Positions 38,357-46,109 of a stretch of DNA of 64,000 nt are shown one piece after another. The notes under the pieces were generated by a model. That model had not been told where the DNA came from. It made no database searches and was given only the letters and a program-made list of their open reading frames with translations. The first letter of the stretch is position 1. Each line of letters begins with the position of its first letter. The stretch comes from an uncultured Bacteroidota bacterium (GTDB lineage: Bacteria; Bacteroidota; Bacteroidia; Flavobacteriales; Flavobacteriaceae). The DNA is taken from contig CACMJT010000002.1 of the NCBI GenBank assembly GCA_902614065.1, positions 62,001-126,000 of the forward strand, written 5' to 3'. Position numbers and translations under genes: made by a program.

Positions 38357-39268
38357 TCAAACACTATTTAAATCGGATAAAAGTTCCAAATAATTTTTGT
38401 ATCTGCTTTTCGCGATAAGCCCCTTATCAACTGCTAACTTTACATCACAGCCTGGTTCATCTTTGTGTAAACAGTCGTTATACTTACAGTTTTTGTATTT
38501 CAAAAATTCCATAAAACAATCTTTAAGCTGAGCCTCATCAAAATCATATAGTCCGAACCCTTTAATTCCTGGTGTATCAATTATTTTTGAACCATTTTTT
38601 AAATCATACATTTTTGTGAATGTGGTGGTGTGTTGACCTGTCAGATTTGAGCTTGAGATTGGAGATGTTTTAATATTTAATGAATCATCTATTGAGTTTA
38701 GTAAAGTTGATTTACCAGAGCCACTGTGACCTGTAAATACACAGGTTTTATTTTTCATTTCCCCCTCCAATGACTTAAGATTTAATAATTTTTTACCTGA
38801 GATCTTAAAACATTTGTAACCTATACTGGTATACAAATCAAATAATTCATCTAAGTTGGATTTTTCTTCAATGTCCAAGTCATCAATCTTATTAAACAAA
38901 AGGCATGTATCAATATTGTATGCAAAATTGGATGCCAAAAATCTATCAACAAACATTTTAGAAGTTAGAGGTCTATTAACAGTTATTATCAAAAAACATA
39001 AATCTATATTAGAAGCTATTATTTGATACTGTTTTGACAATTTAACTGACTTTCTTATTATGTAATTTTTTCTGTTTAAAACCGATTCTATAACAGGTGT
39101 TTTATTTTTATCAATTTTTATATTTACAAAGTCGCCGGCACATACAGGATTTGTAGACTTTAAATCTGAATTCCTCAGTTTTCCGGCAAGCTTACATTCA
39201 ATAAAACTATTTTTTTTATCTTTAACCAAGTACCAGCTTCCTGTTGACTTGTAAACTAAACCTTGCAT
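38357..39268 (-). CDS. rsgA: Small ribosomal subunit biogenesis GTPase RsgA
   Basis: Circularly permuted GTPase of late 30S maturation. An OB fold occupies ~1-75, then the permuted order G4 (LLFNKIDD), G1 (GHSGSGKSTLLN, ~180-191), G3 (DTPGIKGFG). The C-terminal zinc site is intact: Cys-x4-Cys-x-His-x5-Cys in NCKYNDCLHKDEPGC. Length 303 aa. It overlaps the DAHP synthase stop by one base. Confidence 0.95.
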   Translation of the reverse strand: MQGLVYKSTGSWYLVKDKKNSFIECKLAGKLRNSDLKSTNPVCAGDFVNIKIDKNKTPVIESVLNRKNYIIRKSVKLSKQYQIIASNIDLCFLIITVNRPLTSKMFVDRFLASNFAYNIDTCLLFNKIDDLDIEEKSNLDELFDLYTSIGYKCFKISGKKLLNLKSLEGEMKNKTCVFTGHSGSGKSTLLNSIDDSLNIKTSPISSSNLTGQHTTTFTKMYDLKNGSKIIDTPGIKGFGLYDFDEAQLKDCFMEFLKYKNCKYNDCLHKDEPGCDVKLAVDKGLIAKSRYKNYLELLSDLNSV

Positions 39269-40350
39269 TAGTTTTTCAAAATTTTTTCTTGATGATTAAT
39301 TGATTCTTGATGAATAGCTTTAAATATTTTTAAAATAAAATCTTCACTTAATCCCCTTTGTTTACCATCGGAGATCATTTTTTTTAATATGTTCTTCCAT
39401 CTTTCTGATTGAAGAATTGCAACATTTTGTTTTTTCTTGATTTTACCAATTTCATCAGAAACCTTCATCCTGATTCCAAGTATATCCAAAATTTGAGAGT
39501 CTGCATCATCAATTTTAATCCTTAAGTTTTCTAATTCTTTAATGAAACTTCTTTCATGAACTGACTCTTTTCTAATTACCAAATCCTTCATAAGCTTAAT
39601 TAACGTTTTTGGTGTTATTTGCTGTGAGGCGTCGCTCCAAGCATTATCAGGATCATTATGGGTTTCGATCATTAAACCATCAAAGTTTAGGTCCAACGCT
39701 TTTTGTGATGTTTCCTCAATAATATCTCTTCTACCGCATATGTGAGATGGATCACAAATCAAAGGCAAATCAGGAAACTTATTTTGTAACTCAATTGGAA
39801 TTTGCCACTCTGGATTATTTCTAAATTTAGTCTTTGAGTAAGTGGAAAAACCTCGGTGAATGACACCTAGTTTTTTAATATTTGCACTATACAACCTTTC
39901 AATTCCACCATACCAAAGCGAAAGATCAGGGTTTACAGGATTTTTCAAAAGCACAATTTTATCAGTATTTTGTAGTGCGTCTGCAATTTCTTGAACTATA
40001 AATGGACTAACAGTTGATCTGGCTCCAATCCATAAAACATCTACATCATGATCAAGGGCAATCTTAACATGATTAGCATTTGCAACCTCTGTTGTAATTA
40101 AAAGTCCCGTTTCCTTTTTAACTTTCTGAAGCCACTTCAAGCCAATAGATCCAACACCTTCAAAATTTCCAGGGCGTGTTCTAGGCTTCCAAATGCCAGC
40201 TCTAAAAATTGATACATCACTATTTTTTAGGTCGTGAGCAATTTGCAAGACCTGGGATTCTGTCTCAGCACTACATGGACCTGCAATGACCAACGGATGA
40301 TCAAGATTCAAATCGTCTAACCAACTCCTCAGTTTACTATTATTTTTCAT
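39268..40350 (-). CDS. Bifunctional DAHP synthase / chorismate mutase
   Basis: First step of aromatic synthesis (PEP plus erythrose 4-phosphate to DAHP) fused to chorismate mutase. Residues ~15-260 are a KdsA-like (type I-beta) DAHP synthase: VIAGPCSAETESQVLQIA, FRAGIWKPRTRPGNFEG, IGARSTVSPF, LLKNPVNPDL, CDPSHICGRRD and MIETHNDPDNAWSDA. Residues ~270-355 are an all-helical AroQ-type chorismate mutase (ELENLRIKIDDADSQILDIL). The C-terminal mutase is the usual Bacteroidota arrangement and often gives feedback control by prephenate. It is 1 nt after tyrA. Confidence 0.94.
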   Translation of the reverse strand: MKNNSKLRSWLDDLNLDHPLVIAGPCSAETESQVLQIAHDLKNSDVSIFRAGIWKPRTRPGNFEGVGSIGLKWLQKVKKETGLLITTEVANANHVKIALDHDVDVLWIGARSTVSPFIVQEIADALQNTDKIVLLKNPVNPDLSLWYGGIERLYSANIKKLGVIHRGFSTYSKTKFRNNPEWQIPIELQNKFPDLPLICDPSHICGRRDIIEETSQKALDLNFDGLMIETHNDPDNAWSDASQQITPKTLIKLMKDLVIRKESVHERSFIKELENLRIKIDDADSQILDILGIRMKVSDEIGKIKKKQNVAILQSERWKNILKKMISDGKQRGLSEDFILKIFKAIHQESINHQEKILKN

Positions 40351-40351
40351 T

Positions 40352-41206
40352 TTATTTAATTTTAATTCCTGATAAAACTTTTCTTATTAAATTGATTTTG
40401 CTAAGCTCATCAAAAAGCAAATCACTCTGACTCTTTTCGATTAGACTTTTTATATAATTCAAGTTATCAATATATTCATTTAATGCTTCAACAAGATTAG
40501 ACTTATTGTCATTGAAAATTGAACCCCATGTTTCAGGCGAACTTTTTGCTAACCTCACTGTTGACTCAAACCCACTGCCTGCCAAGTCAAAAATATTTTT
40601 TCTAACCAATTTCTTTTCGAGAACGGTTTTAGCTAACATAAAAGATGAGATGTGAGACAAATGTGACACATATGCAATATTTTTATCATGTTCCAAGGGG
40701 TCCATATTAATAATTTTCATCCTTAACTTTTTAAATAATTTCAATGCTCTTTCAAGCAATTCTGACCTGGTTTTATCTGACTCACATACAATATTTATGG
40801 AATTTGTATATAGGCCTTTGATAGCAGATTTTGGACCACTATTCTCAGTACCTGCAATTGGATGTGATGCCAAGAATTGATCTCTTTTAGGATGATTATT
40901 TAAAGCATTACAAATACTATTTTTGGTTGAACCCACATCAATCACTAATGTATTAGGCCCAACAAAATCTAGATACTTTTTAACAACATCAGGTATGATA
41001 TGAACAGGAACTGAAACAATAAGAAAATCTAAATCTTTACAATTTGTTTCACTCAATAATTCATCTACTATTTTATTATCAATTGAATATTGAAAATTTT
41101 TTATATCAACATCAAAGCCATAAATTTTTGAATCTTTATATATTGATCGGAAATCAAGGGCAAAAGACCCTCCCATTAAGCCAACACCAATTATACCAAT
41201 CTTCAT
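40352..41206 (-). CDS. tyrA: Prephenate dehydrogenase
   Basis: NAD(P)-dependent oxidative decarboxylation of prephenate to 4-hydroxyphenylpyruvate on the tyrosine branch. The nucleotide-binding motif GIIGVGLMGGSFALDF lies at residues 3-18; DVGSTKNSI, SHPIAGTENSGP and the catalytic-His block YVSHLSHISSFML follow. Length 284 aa, without an ACT or mutase domain. It overlaps the aminotransferase gene by 4 nt. Confidence 0.94.
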   Translation of the reverse strand: MKIGIIGVGLMGGSFALDFRSIYKDSKIYGFDVDIKNFQYSIDNKIVDELLSETNCKDLDFLIVSVPVHIIPDVVKKYLDFVGPNTLVIDVGSTKNSICNALNNHPKRDQFLASHPIAGTENSGPKSAIKGLYTNSINIVCESDKTRSELLERALKLFKKLRMKIINMDPLEHDKNIAYVSHLSHISSFMLAKTVLEKKLVRKNIFDLAGSGFESTVRLAKSSPETWGSIFNDNKSNLVEALNEYIDNLNYIKSLIEKSQSDLLFDELSKINLIRKVLSGIKIK

Positions 41207-42351
41207 AGTAATTTATTTAATGCATCATTTAATTTGTCTTGACTCAAACAAAGCGAAAGCCTAACGTAACCTTCACCATTTGTTCCAAAAATTGATCCTG
41301 GAGTAATGAAAATTTCTCTATTATAGAGAAGATTGTCAACAAATTCCATTGAGGATGTATCTGGACTATTAATTTTTGCCCAAACAAACATTCCGGTTAA
41401 GTTTTTGTCATAAGTCAAGCCTAACTTATCACAAATTTTATAAACAATTTCTCTTCTTTCTCTGTAAATTTTATTCATTGATCTGTACCATGAGCTATCT
41501 AAACACAATGCCTCAATAGCACCCTTTTGAATACCGTAATACATACCAGAATCGATATTTGATTTAACCTTGAGAATTGTATCTATATTATTTTTGGATC
41601 CCACAAGCATACCAACTCTCCATCCTGCCATGTTGTGGGACTTACTCAATGAATTAAGTTCCAAACAATGATCAAAACTGGAATCAACAGACAAGAAACT
41701 CACAGGGTTATCATTTAAAATAAAGCTGTATGGATTATCATTAATAACAAGAATATCGTTAGAAACTGCAAAATCATATATTTTTTTAAAAAACTCAATA
41801 TTTGAATTTTTTCCAGTTGGCATATTAGGGTAATTTATCCACATCAATTTTACTTTATCTGAAATTAATAATTTGAGTGAATCTAAATCAGGAAGCCAAC
41901 TATTTTTTTCAAGAAGAGGATAAAATAATGGCTCTGCACCTACTAATTTTGTTATTGATTGATAGCTTGGATAACCTGGGTTTGGTATTAAAACTTTATC
42001 CCCTTTATTAAGAAATGCCAATGAGATATGCATTATCCCTTCTTTTGAACCGATTAGAGGTAAAATATTTTTATCAGAATCCAATGATACATTATAATTT
42101 TTTTTGTAAAAATCTGAGATACTTATCCTCAGTTGATTGATGCCCTTGTAAGGCTGATACTTGTGCGAACCGTTATCATTTGTGGCTTTTTTAAGTGCAT
42201 TCGTCACGTTTTCTGGAGGTGACAAATCTGGATTACCAATTCCCATATTAATTATATTTTTTCCACGTCTATTAAGCTCACTAATCTCCCTCAGCTTTGT
42301 TGAAAAGTAGTACTCTTTAATATCTTTTAATCTTTGCGCAGGTTTTATCAT
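41203..42351 (-). CDS. PLP-dependent class I/II aminotransferase
   Basis: Fold-type I aminotransferase of 382 aa. Substrate-binding N-terminal segment NMGIGNPDLSPP (~36-47), WINYPNMPTGKNSN, INDNPYSFIL and the Schiff-base lysine in LNSLSKSHNMAGWRVG (~232-247) are clear, with RLSLCLS near the C-terminus. Its place between pheA and tyrA suggests it transaminates phenylpyruvate and 4-hydroxyphenylpyruvate (or prephenate) as the last Phe/Tyr step; aspartate specificity is an alternative. It overlaps pheA by 4 nt. Confidence 0.9.
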   Translation of the reverse strand: MIKPAQRLKDIKEYYFSTKLREISELNRRGKNIINMGIGNPDLSPPENVTNALKKATNDNGSHKYQPYKGINQLRISISDFYKKNYNVSLDSDKNILPLIGSKEGIMHISLAFLNKGDKVLIPNPGYPSYQSITKLVGAEPLFYPLLEKNSWLPDLDSLKLLISDKVKLMWINYPNMPTGKNSNIEFFKKIYDFAVSNDILVINDNPYSFILNDNPVSFLSVDSSFDHCLELNSLSKSHNMAGWRVGMLVGSKNNIDTILKVKSNIDSGMYYGIQKGAIEALCLDSSWYRSMNKIYRERREIVYKICDKLGLTYDKNLTGMFVWAKINSPDTSSMEFVDNLLYNREIFITPGSIFGTNGEGYVRLSLCLSQDKLNDALNKLL

Positions 42352-43166
42352 TTTTTAAAATTATTATAAACCCCAAACTCTTTAATATCATCAGAAACAG
42401 ACATTAAATCATTGAAGCAATTTTTATAATTCTTCAAACTCGGAAAAGTTAAGTCAACAAAAAAAGAATATTTCCAGGGTGACTCAACAATTGGAATACT
42501 TTGAATTTTTGTAAGATTTATATCGTACTCTGCAATTATATTTAAAACCTTTGCAAGACTTCCATTTCTGTGACTCAAGACAAATTTAATGGAGGCTTTA
42601 TTTGCTAATTGTTTAGTTTTTTGATCAACTTTTTTTGATATTATTACAAAACGTGTTTGATTATAGTTTACAGATTGTATGTTTTTTTCCAAAATTTTCA
42701 ATCCATAAATTTTTGCTGCATTTTTGCTTGCGATTGCAGCAAGATTTTTTAATTTTTGTTCCGAAATTAATTTTGCCACTTGAGCAGTATCGACATCTTC
42801 AATTAGGATTTTATCAATTTGTTTTAAGTAATCCTTACACTGTAAAAATGCCATAGGGTGAGAGGATATCTTTTCAACATCAGAAATTTTCACTCCCTTG
42901 TAAACTAATAAGTTATGATTTATATTGATGTAATACTCACCCACAATCTTTAAATTTAGTTTATCAATTATGGCATAGTTTGGAATTATAGAACCTGCTA
43001 TTGAGTTTTCAATTGCCATAATTCCTATTTCTGCTTTAGATTCAAAAACACTTTCTGCCATTTTATCAAATGAGAGACATTCTAAAATATTTACATCGTC
43101 ACCGTATAACGCACACGCAACATCATGATGATAAGAACCTTTTATACCTTGAATAGATACCAACAT
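42348..43166 (-). CDS. pheA: Prephenate dehydratase
   Basis: Converts prephenate to phenylpyruvate. The periplasmic-binding-like catalytic domain covers ~1-185 (SIQGIKGSYHHDVA, MAIENSIAGSIIPNY, SHPMAFLQCKDYL, and the catalytic TRF in NQTRFVIISKK). A C-terminal ACT domain (~195-270) has GSLAKVLNIIAEYDINLTKI and VESPWKYSFFVDL, the Phe-sensing region, so feedback inhibition is likely. I start it at the ATG at 43166 (272 aa); the open frame reaches a TTG at 43172, which lies inside the terminator T-run. The start codon is 4 nt after that run, so attenuation directly controls this gene. Confidence 0.95.
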   Translation of the reverse strand: MLVSIQGIKGSYHHDVACALYGDDVNILECLSFDKMAESVFESKAEIGIMAIENSIAGSIIPNYAIIDKLNLKIVGEYYININHNLLVYKGVKISDVEKISSHPMAFLQCKDYLKQIDKILIEDVDTAQVAKLISEQKLKNLAAIASKNAAKIYGLKILEKNIQSVNYNQTRFVIISKKVDQKTKQLANKASIKFVLSHRNGSLAKVLNIIAEYDINLTKIQSIPIVESPWKYSFFVDLTFPSLKNYKNCFNDLMSVSDDIKEFGVYNNFKK

Positions 43167-43170
43167 AATC

Positions 43171-43198
43171 AAAAAAAAAAGTCCTGATAATCAGGACT
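43171..43198 (-). terminator. Intrinsic terminator (attenuator) in the pheA leader
   Basis: On the minus strand an 8-bp stem AGTCCTGA / TCAGGACT (43198-43191 and 43187-43180) closes a 3-nt loop and is followed by ten T residues (43180-43171). This is a complete rho-independent terminator directly upstream of pheA. It could also end transcription arriving from the receptor gene upstream, but the leader ORF and alternative pairing before it point to an attenuator. Confidence 0.88.
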
Positions 43199-43221
43199 CC
43201 TTGCTTAAATTTTTACATTTA

Positions 43222-43296
43222 TTAACAAAAAATCCTGAACTTATACTGGTAGTAAAAGAAAAAAGAAAAATTTTGATAATAAATTTTTGTTAACAT
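43222..43296 (-). CDS. Phe/Tyr-rich leader peptide of the aromatic operon
   Basis: A 24-codon ORF (ATG 43296-43294, TAA 43224-43222) in the 180-nt gap between the receptor gene and pheA. It encodes six Phe (codons 10, 12, 13, 14, 20, 23) and five Tyr (6, 7, 15, 16, 18), with the core FSFFFYYQY. It begins 5 nt after a consensus -7 element, so its mRNA would be leaderless or almost so. Eleven aromatic codons of the two end products among 24, in front of a terminator and pheA, are the mark of an attenuation leader peptide. I have not seen a name for it; it is analogous to pheL of enterobacteria. Confidence 0.85.
   Translation of the reverse strand: MLTKIYYQNFSFFFYYQYKFRIFC
43231..43238 (-). promoter_or_regulatory. 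Antiterminator segment of the aromatic leader
   Basis: TCAGGATT within codons 20-22 of the leader peptide can pair over 8 bases (one G-U) with the 5' arm AGTCCTGA of the terminator at 43198-43191. Stalling at the Phe/Tyr codons 6-18 would leave it free and block the terminator; a ribosome reaching the stop codon at 43222 would cover it. A further possible 10-bp stem pairs 43293-43284 with 43231-43222 around the aromatic codons; it is AT-rich and less certain. Confidence 0.7.
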
Positions 43297-43301
43297 GTCC
43301 T

Positions 43302-43331
43302 CAAATGTAATACAGTATTTAGTTATCACAA
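43302..43331 (-). promoter_or_regulatory. Promoter TTG-N19-TACATTTG of the aromatic operon
   Basis: On the minus strand TTG (43331-43329), 19 nt, then TACATTTG (43309-43302) is an optimal Bacteroidota -33/-7 promoter. It begins about 20 nt after the receptor gene stop and predicts a start site at or within a few bases of the leader-peptide ATG. Confidence 0.75.
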
Positions 43332-43352
43332 AATTAATTAACTAAAATATTA

Positions 43353-46109
43353 TCATTTAAGACGACCTCCTCCAGAGTTGCCTCTTCTACTTTTTTGTTG
43401 GTTTCGGTCGTTTTTTTTCTCTTTACCTCCAAAAAGTGTCAAATCATATTTAAGTTTAAAAAGAATATATCTGGGTTGAATGATATAACTTCTTGTTTGA
43501 GTAAAAAACTGATTGAAAGAGTCTCTGTTAGTGGAAGTGTCATTTAGCAAATTAGTTACAGCGACTGAATACTCCCATTTTGAACCTTCCTTATTATAAG
43601 AAATATCCGCATCAAGGAACCTAAAGTAATTCAAAACTTGATCTTGATTTTTGTATTTATTGTAACTGTACTCTGCTGTGAATACAAATCCTCTTCCGAA
43701 GTAAGCATCAGTCCTGATAAAAGGTGTTTCTCTAATGAATTTATTCTCGATGTTTGCATTCTTATAATTATTAAGGTTGTATTTTAATCCGATCTCAAAG
43801 TTTGGCTTGTCTCTAAAGTTTGTTTCCAAGCTAGCTTCATAGTCTTGATTAAAGCTCTCAGCATTATTGACCACATCATTAATTATGTTTGAAAATTCAC
43901 TGTATCTAAAATTGGCACTCAGATTTAACTTAATATTTTTAAACCTCCTATCTAATCTGGCCCTAGCAGAATAAGTTTCCCTTGGAAATATTGAATTATC
44001 CGCAGTTCTGACTGAGTTAATGCCATCTATTGCAGCTCTTGATTGAATAGAGTTTTCTCTTTTAGAATAAGATATGTTCGAATATATATTTGTGAAAGTA
44101 AATTGGTTAATACTCCTGTAATTCAAATTGTATGAATTAACTATTGCCGCTTCCAACTCTCTATTTCCTCTGAATATACTATTGTAATTATTAAAAATAT
44201 AACCCTCTGAAATATTATTAACATCTGTGAATTGAGTATTTTTTCTGTATGTAAACCTTAAATTTTCATTCTTTTTGAACTGCATATTAACTCTTAGGTT
44301 TGGTCTTAAATCTGAGATGTCTTTTGCAAATGTCTGACCCAATTGAATGTTGTTGTTGTCATAAAAATGAAGTGTTAAGCCTGGATCAATAGTAAATATT
44401 CCAGTTCTAACTCTGTAGTTGAGGGCAAAATAAAGATCCTTGAAACTAAAATCTACATCATTATTAAATTGCTCATCATCAAATGAATTTGTTGTGCCAT
44501 CGTCTAAAGTCTGATTAAAGTTTGATAAGTAATTCTGATCCACATTGGTAAAACCTATACTTAGGTTGATGTTTGACTGATCATTAATTAGGTAAAAATA
44601 GTCCAATTTTGCTTCAAGTTTTTGTGTTTCAATAAACCTGTATTGAGAAATATCAAATCTCTGTACATTAGAGTCAAAAGGAATTAATGATAAGAATGGG
44701 TTCCTTTCTCTCACTGCTCTGCCAATTGGATCTTCTGTTTGGTCCAAGTGCTGTGCTTCAAATGAAAAGATGTGGTCTTCATTTAAGGTATAATAAACTT
44801 TTAATTCCTGGTTCAGAGCTTTGGGAGTTTGCGTCCTCGTTAAATCAAGGTTTTCCTCTAATCGATTATTTAATCTACCATAAATCGAAGTCAGATCATT
44901 AACCTCAGACTGGTCAGAACTGTTGAATAATATATTGTATTCCAGCTGAAAAATTTCACTTGGTTCGTACTCAAGACTAAATTTGTAAAGTTCAAGTGTA
45001 CTTTTTTGAAGTGAATATTCACTAGTATTTTCAACCACCTCAGTGGCGTTGTAAGTTCTTTTTATTTGCTCCTCAATATCATTGGTAACTGTTGTAAAAA
45101 CACTAAAACCAGAAATTTCAAGTCCTTTATCATTATTAACAGAAAAATTAGCTGCACCGAATTCAGATTCTATCAACTTTGCTCTGTTGTTTTGTAGACT
45201 TCCTATTCCTGCTAAATCCGAGCTAATATTGATTGAAGTTCCAGCTCTTGAGTTAAGATTATTAAATCCGCCCGAAAACCTGTAAAAATCTCTTCTACTT
45301 AAAGCAGGGGCACCCACATCATTTGAATTACCAAGTACACTAAAATTAAATTTTTTGTCATAGTAGAATATTTTTGGCGCAATCAAATGAATATCGTCCG
45401 GTCCTGTTCCAGCTAAAATTTCGCCAAACCAAAATTTATCTTTGCCATCCTTGAGCCTGATGTTAATTGCGAAGTTGTCTTCATTATTTTGAACGCTTCT
45501 TAGTTGTCCAACCTCTGTAAAGTTTCTTAAAACTTCAACTTTTCCAACAGCCTTGGCTGGTAAATTTTGAGCAGCTAGTTTTGTATCACCATCAAAAAAA
45601 TCTTTACCCTCAATTTGTATTTTTCTAACCTCTTGTCCCTCTACTTCAATTCTTCCATCTTCATTAACTTCGATTCCAGGCATATTTGCTAAAACATCCG
45701 ATAATTTTTTCTCAGTTCCTGTATTAAAAGCATCGGCGCTGTATACAATTGTGTCGCCTTTGATTTCTACTGGCATTTCATAAACCAACTCAACTTCATC
45801 AAGTGCCTCAGCCTGTTCCTCAAGAATAAAGTCTTTAACTAAATCTTCACTGAGTGATATATTCAATTCAATAGGCTTATATCCAATGAATGTGATTTTG
45901 ATGTTAAATTCTGTGTCCTTTTTTAAATTAAGGCTGAAATACCCATTGTCATTTGAAATACCGAATCCATCTAAAATTTGAGTCTCATTATTGACAGCAA
46001 TAATGTTAGCTCCCATAATTGGATAACCAGTCTGGTCTTTAATTTCTCCACTTATATTAACTTGAGAAAAGATGAGATATGGAAATAGAAAAATTATAAT
46101 ATATTTCAT
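43353..46109 (-). CDS. TonB-dependent-receptor-like outer-membrane beta-barrel protein
   Basis: A 918-aa outer-membrane protein: signal peptide (~1-16, ending IFSQ), carboxypeptidase-regulatory-like Ig domain (~17-95, ISGEIKDQTGYPIMGANIIA), plug-like region (~125-215, GTEKKLSDVLANMPGIEVNE, DGRIEVEGQEVRKIQIEGKDFF) and a large beta barrel rich in aromatic/aliphatic alternation. It belongs to the OMP_b-brl_3 type of TonB-receptor relatives. The C-terminus is an unusual basic Gly/Arg/Lys tail (KSRRGNSGGGRLK) after the barrel. The gene is directly downstream of the GLPGLI-family gene with no gap, a recurrent pair in Flavobacteriia. The ligand is unknown. Confidence 0.88.
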   Translation of the reverse strand: MKYIIIFLFPYLIFSQVNISGEIKDQTGYPIMGANIIAVNNETQILDGFGISNDNGYFSLNLKKDTEFNIKITFIGYKPIELNISLSEDLVKDFILEEQAEALDEVELVYEMPVEIKGDTIVYSADAFNTGTEKKLSDVLANMPGIEVNEDGRIEVEGQEVRKIQIEGKDFFDGDTKLAAQNLPAKAVGKVEVLRNFTEVGQLRSVQNNEDNFAINIRLKDGKDKFWFGEILAGTGPDDIHLIAPKIFYYDKKFNFSVLGNSNDVGAPALSRRDFYRFSGGFNNLNSRAGTSINISSDLAGIGSLQNNRAKLIESEFGAANFSVNNDKGLEISGFSVFTTVTNDIEEQIKRTYNATEVVENTSEYSLQKSTLELYKFSLEYEPSEIFQLEYNILFNSSDQSEVNDLTSIYGRLNNRLEENLDLTRTQTPKALNQELKVYYTLNEDHIFSFEAQHLDQTEDPIGRAVRERNPFLSLIPFDSNVQRFDISQYRFIETQKLEAKLDYFYLINDQSNINLSIGFTNVDQNYLSNFNQTLDDGTTNSFDDEQFNNDVDFSFKDLYFALNYRVRTGIFTIDPGLTLHFYDNNNIQLGQTFAKDISDLRPNLRVNMQFKKNENLRFTYRKNTQFTDVNNISEGYIFNNYNSIFRGNRELEAAIVNSYNLNYRSINQFTFTNIYSNISYSKRENSIQSRAAIDGINSVRTADNSIFPRETYSARARLDRRFKNIKLNLSANFRYSEFSNIINDVVNNAESFNQDYEASLETNFRDKPNFEIGLKYNLNNYKNANIENKFIRETPFIRTDAYFGRGFVFTAEYSYNKYKNQDQVLNYFRFLDADISYNKEGSKWEYSVAVTNLLNDTSTNRDSFNQFFTQTRSYIIQPRYILFKLKYDLTLFGGKEKKNDRNQQKSRRGNSGGGRLK

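Follow-up and report, generated by a model that had tools for sequence, protein, structure and literature searches.

Candidate leader-peptide attenuators with mixed aromatic codons upstream of the pheA operon in Flavobacteriaceae and other Bacteroidota

Introduction

Leader-peptide attenuators couple the translation of a short peptide to the choice between alternative RNA helices. The enterobacterial phenylalanine leader encodes a peptide with Phe codons and follows the 1:2, 2:3 and 3:4 pairing logic. Multivalent attenuators such as thrL (Thr/Ile) and ilvL (Ile/Val/Leu) read several amino acids of one operon with a single leader. In Bacteroidota, the Bacteroid-trp motif (Rfam RF01692) is presumably a leader-peptide attenuator as well. 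It is listed as a cis-regulatory motif of this phylum, named for trp, in Table 1 of PMC2864571, which also lists a 'pheA' motif in Actinobacteria. For Bacteroides thetaiotaomicron, PMC7366714 mentions short ORFs that resemble leader peptides. The closest description comes from Flavobacterium psychrophilum. According to section 19 of PMC9723704, strong clues point to attenuation by leader peptides ahead of its amino-acid operons; the same paper describes a 5' element before pheA that is shared with other genera and has no Rfam hits.

The present work concerns the window, a stretch of 64,000 nucleotides from an uncultured bacterium of the Flavobacteriaceae. An earlier note made from its sequence proposed a Phe/Tyr leader-peptide attenuator before an aromatic amino-acid operon, and knew of no described example in Flavobacteriia. 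The latter statement was wrong in outline, given the F. psychrophilum element in PMC9723704 and RF01692 for trp in Bacteroidota. The proposal itself gains support from relatives, covariation and geometry. With a probability of about 0.88, the element is a ribosome-mediated transcription attenuator that would sense the charging of tRNA-Phe and tRNA-Tyr, with tRNA-Trp added in many relatives, for a Phe/Tyr operon committing carbon to the shikimate pathway.

Materials and methods

Matches to PheA were obtained in 72 of 100 relatives and in 270 of 299 genomes of the family. Together with 80 named records and samples of the order and the phylum, they supplied 215 loci with 206 distinct upstream regions; the set leans to near kin because the loci are mostly best matches. 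Among the short ORFs preceding a terminator, a scoring script took the one richest in aromatic codons and called it a leader when it held at least five of them. The leader ORF is thereby the most aromatic candidate and region 2 the best-fitting segment, choices which favour both. For stalling geometry, the ribosome footprint was assumed to end about 12 nt past the A-site, its limits being taken over from E. coli.

Operon, leader ORF and promoter in the window

The operon lies on the minus strand and opens with pheA, encoding prephenate dehydratase with an ACT domain (42348..43166; Pfam PDT 7.8e-52, ACT 9.6e-8). This gene is followed by a class I/II aminotransferase (41203..42351; Pfam 4.7e-60), the prephenate dehydrogenase gene tyrA (40352..41206; PDH_N 1.3e-27) and a DAHP synthase fused to chorismate mutase (39268..40350; DAHP_synth_1 9.1e-39, CM_2 1.5e-21). 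Judged by its sequence, the element upstream of this aromatic operon is a classical leader-peptide attenuator. Its promoter, leader ORF and terminator all fit on the minus strand between 43353, where a same-strand gene for an outer-membrane beta-barrel-like protein ends, and the pheA ATG at 43166.

The leader peptide MLTKIYYQNFSFFFYYQYKFRIFC is encoded by 24 codons plus a stop (43222..43296, minus strand; ATG 43296-43294, TAA 43224-43222), is kept in relatives and contains six Phe and five Tyr codons, as the earlier note had stated. An ORF with at least 11 Phe and Tyr codons arose in 7 of 2000 dinucleotide shuffles of 43173-43400. Among the 853 ATG ORFs of 10-40 codons in the 64-kb window, nested ORFs included, the leader has the highest Phe+Tyr density; by count, one longer ORF exceeds it (12/35).

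The promoter proposed upstream of this ORF was found again at 43302..43332 on the minus strand. It consists of a TTTG at 43332-43329, which we take to be the flavobacterial -33 element, a gap of 19 nt and the box TACATTTG at 43309-43302. This -7 box agrees with the consensus for flavobacteria given in PMC9723704, whose section 15 places the sigma-A box TAnnTTTG of F. psychrophilum at -12 to -5. Because of this spacing, transcription is predicted to start at 43297, which would leave the leader a 5' UTR of about 1 nt. A generic sigma-70 scan ranked nothing special at 43302-43332. Close spacing recurs within the genus, where a pattern-matching -7 box precedes the ATG by 5 nt in L001-L006 and by 6-7 nt in L014-L015; just these 8 of 17 same-genus leaders have a box within 7 nt, and the other nine lack one there. 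Among the remaining 165 leaders, a distance of 18 nt between box and ATG is the most frequent (42 leaders), and 27 have no matching box.

Alternative helices and ribosome geometry

Folding predicts three alternative hairpins on the minus strand of the window. The intrinsic terminator (43171..43202; -13.6 kcal/mol) comprises region 3 (43198-43191), a loop (43190-43188), region 4 (43187-43180) and ten T (43180-43171), the first of which also closes the core. The 8-bp core and the T run ending 4 nt before the pheA ATG at 43166 agree with the earlier description, and outer pairs extend the stem to 12 bp. The antiterminator (43191..43238) starts region 2 at 43238 and ends region 3 at 43191. The 8-base pairing originally noticed, of TCAGGATT at 43238-43231 with AGTCCTGA at 43198-43191, holds with one U-G pair, and its length was underestimated: the hairpin has 15 pairs plus five more inside, and reaches -19.6 kcal/mol (z -4.3), a value that none of 200 shuffles attains. 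As it overlaps the terminator at 43198-43171, the two structures are mutually exclusive in the manner of leader attenuators. New relative to the earlier note is a protector hairpin at 43217..43284, in which region 1 (43284-43271) pairs with region 2 (43230-43217) at -12.2 kcal/mol. By shuffling, this 1:2 helix is weak in the window (z -1.3), and it covaries in 13 same-genus leaders.

Geometry fits these structures, under the assumed footprint. With the A-site at codons 6-16 the antiterminator stays intact (-19.4 to -21.5 kcal/mol); at codon 17 it weakens to -13.9 kcal/mol, and from codon 18 (-5.7 kcal/mol) onward it is lost. The suggestion that stalls at codons 6-18 would free the antiterminator thus stands for codons 6-16 and fails for the last two. 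With this effective stall window and the assumed footprint, 8 of the 11 aromatic codons are competent. Across relatives and with the same footprint, 178 of 182 leaders have four or more aromatic codons at which a stalled ribosome would keep clear of region 2. The idea that translation to the stop at 43222 would cover the antiterminator agrees with the geometry, as a terminating ribosome of the assumed footprint would span half or more of region 2 in 166 of 182 leaders and less than half in 16.

The computed ORF, helices, covariation, codon conservation and geometry suggest the following sequence of events. RNA polymerase would start about 1 nt 5' of the leader ATG. When Phe or Tyr is scarce, the ribosome would stall while its A-site holds one of the aromatic codons in the stretch 6-16, and would mask region 1; region 2 would then pair with region 3 (-19.6 kcal/mol), no terminator would form, and pheA would be transcribed. 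When both amino acids are plentiful, a ribosome at the stop codon would cover region 2, so that regions 3 and 4 pair and transcription ends at the T run. If the leader is not translated, region 1 would pair with region 2 and the terminator would form again.

Otherwise alike Flavobacterium-type leaders (L052, L062, L065, L079 and others) end at one of two stop sites, either before region 2 (..FFFRK) or after it (..SRSKDCAMVI). These two positions may serve as a natural experiment on the position required of the terminating ribosome.

Occurrence among relatives

The aromatic-rich ORF is conserved upstream of pheA in relatives, together with helix arms that covary. The script scored a leader in 182 of the 206 distinct regions, namely 152 of 155 in the family and 30 of 51 outside it. 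Seven of the 24 regions missed by the script carry a leader on reading (L029, L056, L132, L201, L203, L206, L210). In 20 further family genomes, hand-picked from rows without a locus and judged on ORFs alone without stem scoring, an aromatic ORF was present in all 20. Leaders occur in 15 families, reached through the order (f1, f2, f3, f9, f15), the class (f17, f18, f19, f22, f23) and the phylum (f29, f32, f41, f47, f51). In families with distant pheA genes (20 loci) a single convincing leader was found, at L267; ORFs at L248, L252, L255 and L262 were rejected on reading.

The gene order pheA-aminotransferase-tyrA-DAHP synthase/chorismate mutase is present in 75 of the 76 named loci that extend 4.3 kb or more downstream, and the leader goes with the operon. 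In the 40 loci L176-L215, 26 of 30 loci with the operon have a leader (four of the 26 by reading), vs 0 of 10 without it. The script finds no leader at L164-L166, where pheA lies behind aroA, at L180 and L185, or at ten loci with pheA outside the operon. It finds none either at L183 and L184, from genomes of about 600 kb that keep the pheA-aminotransferase-tyrA-DAHP synthase operon; here, regulation was perhaps lost before the pathway.

This distribution bears on a simpler explanation, in which the hairpin is a plain terminator of the upstream outer-membrane gene and the ORF is due to chance. That gene does share the strand of the operon, and its end lies at 43353. Nevertheless, a promoter and an ORF intervene, the upstream sequence varies among relatives while leader and terminator stay (by reading), and the leader keeps company with the operon in L176-L215, so that the explanation has very little left in its favour. 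An attenuator belonging to the pheA operon is the preferred reading.

A covariance model, R1, built from 38 leaders of one length class was rejected as a census tool. It matches 48 of 60 family genomes and misses the window's own genome, being too narrow for a census on that account; the weak second matches inspected in four genomes were mostly plain terminators.

Some pheA genes are preceded by two leader-plus-terminator units in series. By script, these were found in 9 of 55 loci scanned in f19 and f23, all nine from f19 (L300, L302, L304, L305, L306, L308, L310, L315, L320), the second ORFs of L304 and L320 being doubtful. By reading, they were also seen at L205, L208/L281, L210 and L273, with some in f23. 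Two such units would be serial attenuators for one operon. A further oddity is L050, a record titled Rhizobium sp. whose pheA and leader are Flavobacterium-like, for which reason the bin is probably mislabelled or contaminated.

Helix statistics and covariation

The 2:3 pairing is stronger than expected by chance across the 182 leaders, with a median duplex energy of -12.9 kcal/mol vs a shuffle mean of -7.6 and a mean z of -3.0. It lies below all 60 shuffles in only 85 of 182 leaders, and at most three shuffles are as low in 132. A swap test matters here, because region 2 was picked by best fit: a leader's own region 3 beats a foreign one in 88% of swaps on average, and in more than half of the swaps for 174 of 182 leaders. 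In one column, read as arm 3/arm 4/arm 2, the combinations are C/G/G in 121 leaders, T/A/A in 37 and G/C/C in 9, both partners thus following the terminator arm, with region 2 again a best-fit choice.

Alignment of the 38 leaders of one length class gave 92.4% paired positions for the terminator, 92.4% for the antiterminator and 85.8% for the protector, vs maxima of 54.3, 58.2 and 48.6% when the arms were slid. The antiterminator has nine double-change cells (0 of 500 shuffles) and four double-change pairs, a number that 36 of 500 shuffles attain; for the protector, the counts are 37 cells (0 of 500) and six pairs (attained by 441 of 500). Within the window's genus (13 leaders), 86.9% of the protector is paired and 12 cells show double changes (0 of 500 shuffles), while the antiterminator is without covariation, 301 of 500 shuffles being as well paired. 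A test of the protector on region 2 alone had suggested that no 1:2 helix exists (mean z -0.83; 32 of 182 below -2). This was reversed once the segment was extended past the stop codon: over 177 leaders the mean z is -1.99, with 81 below -2, and own arms beat foreign ones in 86%.

Codon content of the pheA leaders

The 182 leaders contain 4371 codons, among them 1016 Phe, 620 Tyr and 86 Trp. Every leader has both Phe and Tyr codons, in keeping with the original match of the mixed code to an operon making both amino acids; beyond the earlier note, 84 of 182 also have a Trp codon. In 40 leaders of 23 codons, selected for length and tail, the ten aromatic columns comprise 400 positions, of which 393 are Phe, Tyr or Trp and none is Leu. 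Column 7 of the same leaders has Trp in 24, Tyr in 8, Phe in 7 and Asn in 1. The conserved property is 'aromatic', of any of the three kinds, and Phe, Tyr and Trp interchange. Leaders without tyrA directly behind pheA (L162, L167, L168, L171, L173, L191, L194, L197, L198) keep Tyr codons.

The excess of Phe over Tyr (1016 vs 620 of 4371 codons), and the Phe-only pheL of E. coli would suit a sensor that effectively reads Phe with the Tyr codons as passengers. Such a sensor is unlikely, since Tyr codons occur in all 182 scored leaders, Tyr columns swap almost solely with other aromatic codons (four Thr in one column), and the leaders of two phenylalanine hydroxylase genes are rich in Tyr with 0 or 1 Phe. 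We infer a sensor of both amino acids, in which Phe and Tyr would each carry some weight.

A nascent aromatic-rich peptide might instead arrest its own ribosome when it binds a small molecule, in the manner of TnaC, and the strong conservation of an FYFYFFF motif within one leader class would agree with this. From family to family, on the other hand, the aromatic run differs widely in length, order and flanks, aromatic residues swap, and codon identity differs with the gene behind the leader, making an arrest peptide quite improbable beside codon reading by tRNA.

Leaders before DAHP synthase and phenylalanine hydroxylase

R1 matched two genomes without a PheA match, G055 and G103, and for this reason DAHP synthase/chorismate mutase genes were inspected in genomes of that kind. 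Of the 29 family genomes without PheA match, 20 were examined, and 16 had the full gene. Leaders with adjacent Trp codons (Trp-Trp) precede it in six (G049, G055, G115, G134, G135, G139). The other ten comprise a single-Trp leader (G162), a decayed Phe/Tyr ORF (G116), two genes near a contig edge (G123, G176), one of them with an apparent tyrA end just upstream, and six without a leader. An automatic scan for leaders before DAHP synthase found 2 of 25; the remaining Trp leaders were found by reading, followed by an objective Trp-Trp count. Of 23 loci scanned (14 from the family, 9 from the order), six, all in the family, have a Trp-Trp ATG ORF before DAHP synthase, vs 13 of 4600 shuffles. Such an ORF occurs in none of the 182 pheA leaders (Fisher 1e-10, the seven Trp leaders having been chosen by reading).

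The chorismate mutase part is retained in the DAHP synthases with Trp leaders. On a tree of 71 DAHP synthases, covering part of the loci, Trp-Trp leaders are interspersed with Phe/Tyr leaders. The tree requires three changes, two of them forced by supported branches, and the Trp-Trp leaders are therefore not a single clade, although one gain followed by losses may also account for them. L354 (G055) is a long branch on this tree. The 2:3 pairing of Trp/Tyr leaders outside pheA is weak: only two of nine place among the best 6 of 200 shuffles, and the leader of G134 scores worse than the average shuffle.

Short-type phenylalanine hydroxylase genes were found at four loci among 100 family genomes. 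Two of them, in G103 and G150 (both without PheA match), have terminators and Tyr leaders, MKNLNNTYYYYPILTRRIGQ and MKTNRIYTIYMYTFYHRWRAR, with four Tyr and 0 or 1 Phe each; no leader was found at the other two, L374 and L375. Codon content seems to track the product, as Trp-Trp stands before a lone DAHP synthase and Tyr before phenylalanine hydroxylase.

A second likely attenuator was seen in the window's own genome (L237, G000:C7), upstream of a chorismate-binding gene, perhaps trpE. It has a GTG ORF, MKILLKNIWWQVS (GTG read as M), and is nearly leaderless, with the box TATATTTG 4 nt before the ORF. Its terminator has nine pairs and nine T, its 2:3 pairing reaches -11.5 kcal/mol, and it has no Rfam match. 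HisG has no match in the same genome, which leaves no his leader for comparison.

Discussion

These leaders probably form one class of aromatic attenuators, spread over 15 families of Bacteroidota, whose regulatory codons act as an evolvable address. Its members would carry Phe/Tyr(/Trp) codons on the full operon, Trp-Trp where DAHP synthase lacks adjoining pheA and tyrA (not one clade) and Tyr on phenylalanine hydroxylase; sometimes they come as two serial copies, and in the window's genus they would have essentially no 5' UTR. The result resembles a natural codon-swap experiment, in which the same regulatory chassis seems to read differing amino acids depending on the gene product. If this is true, the output of a pathway could be read from its leader codons as an annotation, in a phylum where little regulation is known, and dual sensing could be tested directly in culturable hosts. 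Additionally, the predicted near-leaderless start raises the question of how ribosomes load and keep pace with polymerase when there is neither a Shine-Dalgarno sequence nor a 5' UTR.

No Rfam family fits the leaders at gathering or relaxed thresholds. The sole match in the whole window at gathering scores is a tRNA, with no T-box or other riboswitch. RF01692, which belongs to the same phylum and is a trp-named cis motif, is found in 12 of 60 relatives, 9 of them over the cut-off, and in 0 of 23 same-genus genomes; over its gathering threshold it appears neither in the window nor in 20 relatives' loci nor in 10 loci with Trp/Tyr leaders. Mixed aromatic code, spread and Trp swap have no account in the mostly open-access literature searched; Lopatovskaya 2010 and Vitreschak 2004 may bear on this.

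The mechanism as read here is a textbook one, and PMC9723704 is the one direct precedent found in the literature searched. Its F. psychrophilum element concerns the same gene in the same family as the window's leader; the text on that element names no peptide, codons, helices or role for Tyr or Trp, and states the spread within the family (main text, Table S7 apart). The Rfam Phe_leader family RF01859 scores 18.3 bits in the window, below its gathering score of 55. Its likeness to the window's leader lies in a leader with Phe codons and in the 1:2, 2:3 and 3:4 logic, whereas the window's leader differs by the mixed Phe/Tyr/Trp codons of its class, by tyrA and DAHP synthase in the operon, and by the near absence of a predicted 5' UTR. 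Like thrL and ilvL, the window's leader would be multivalent, for other amino acids and in another phylum.
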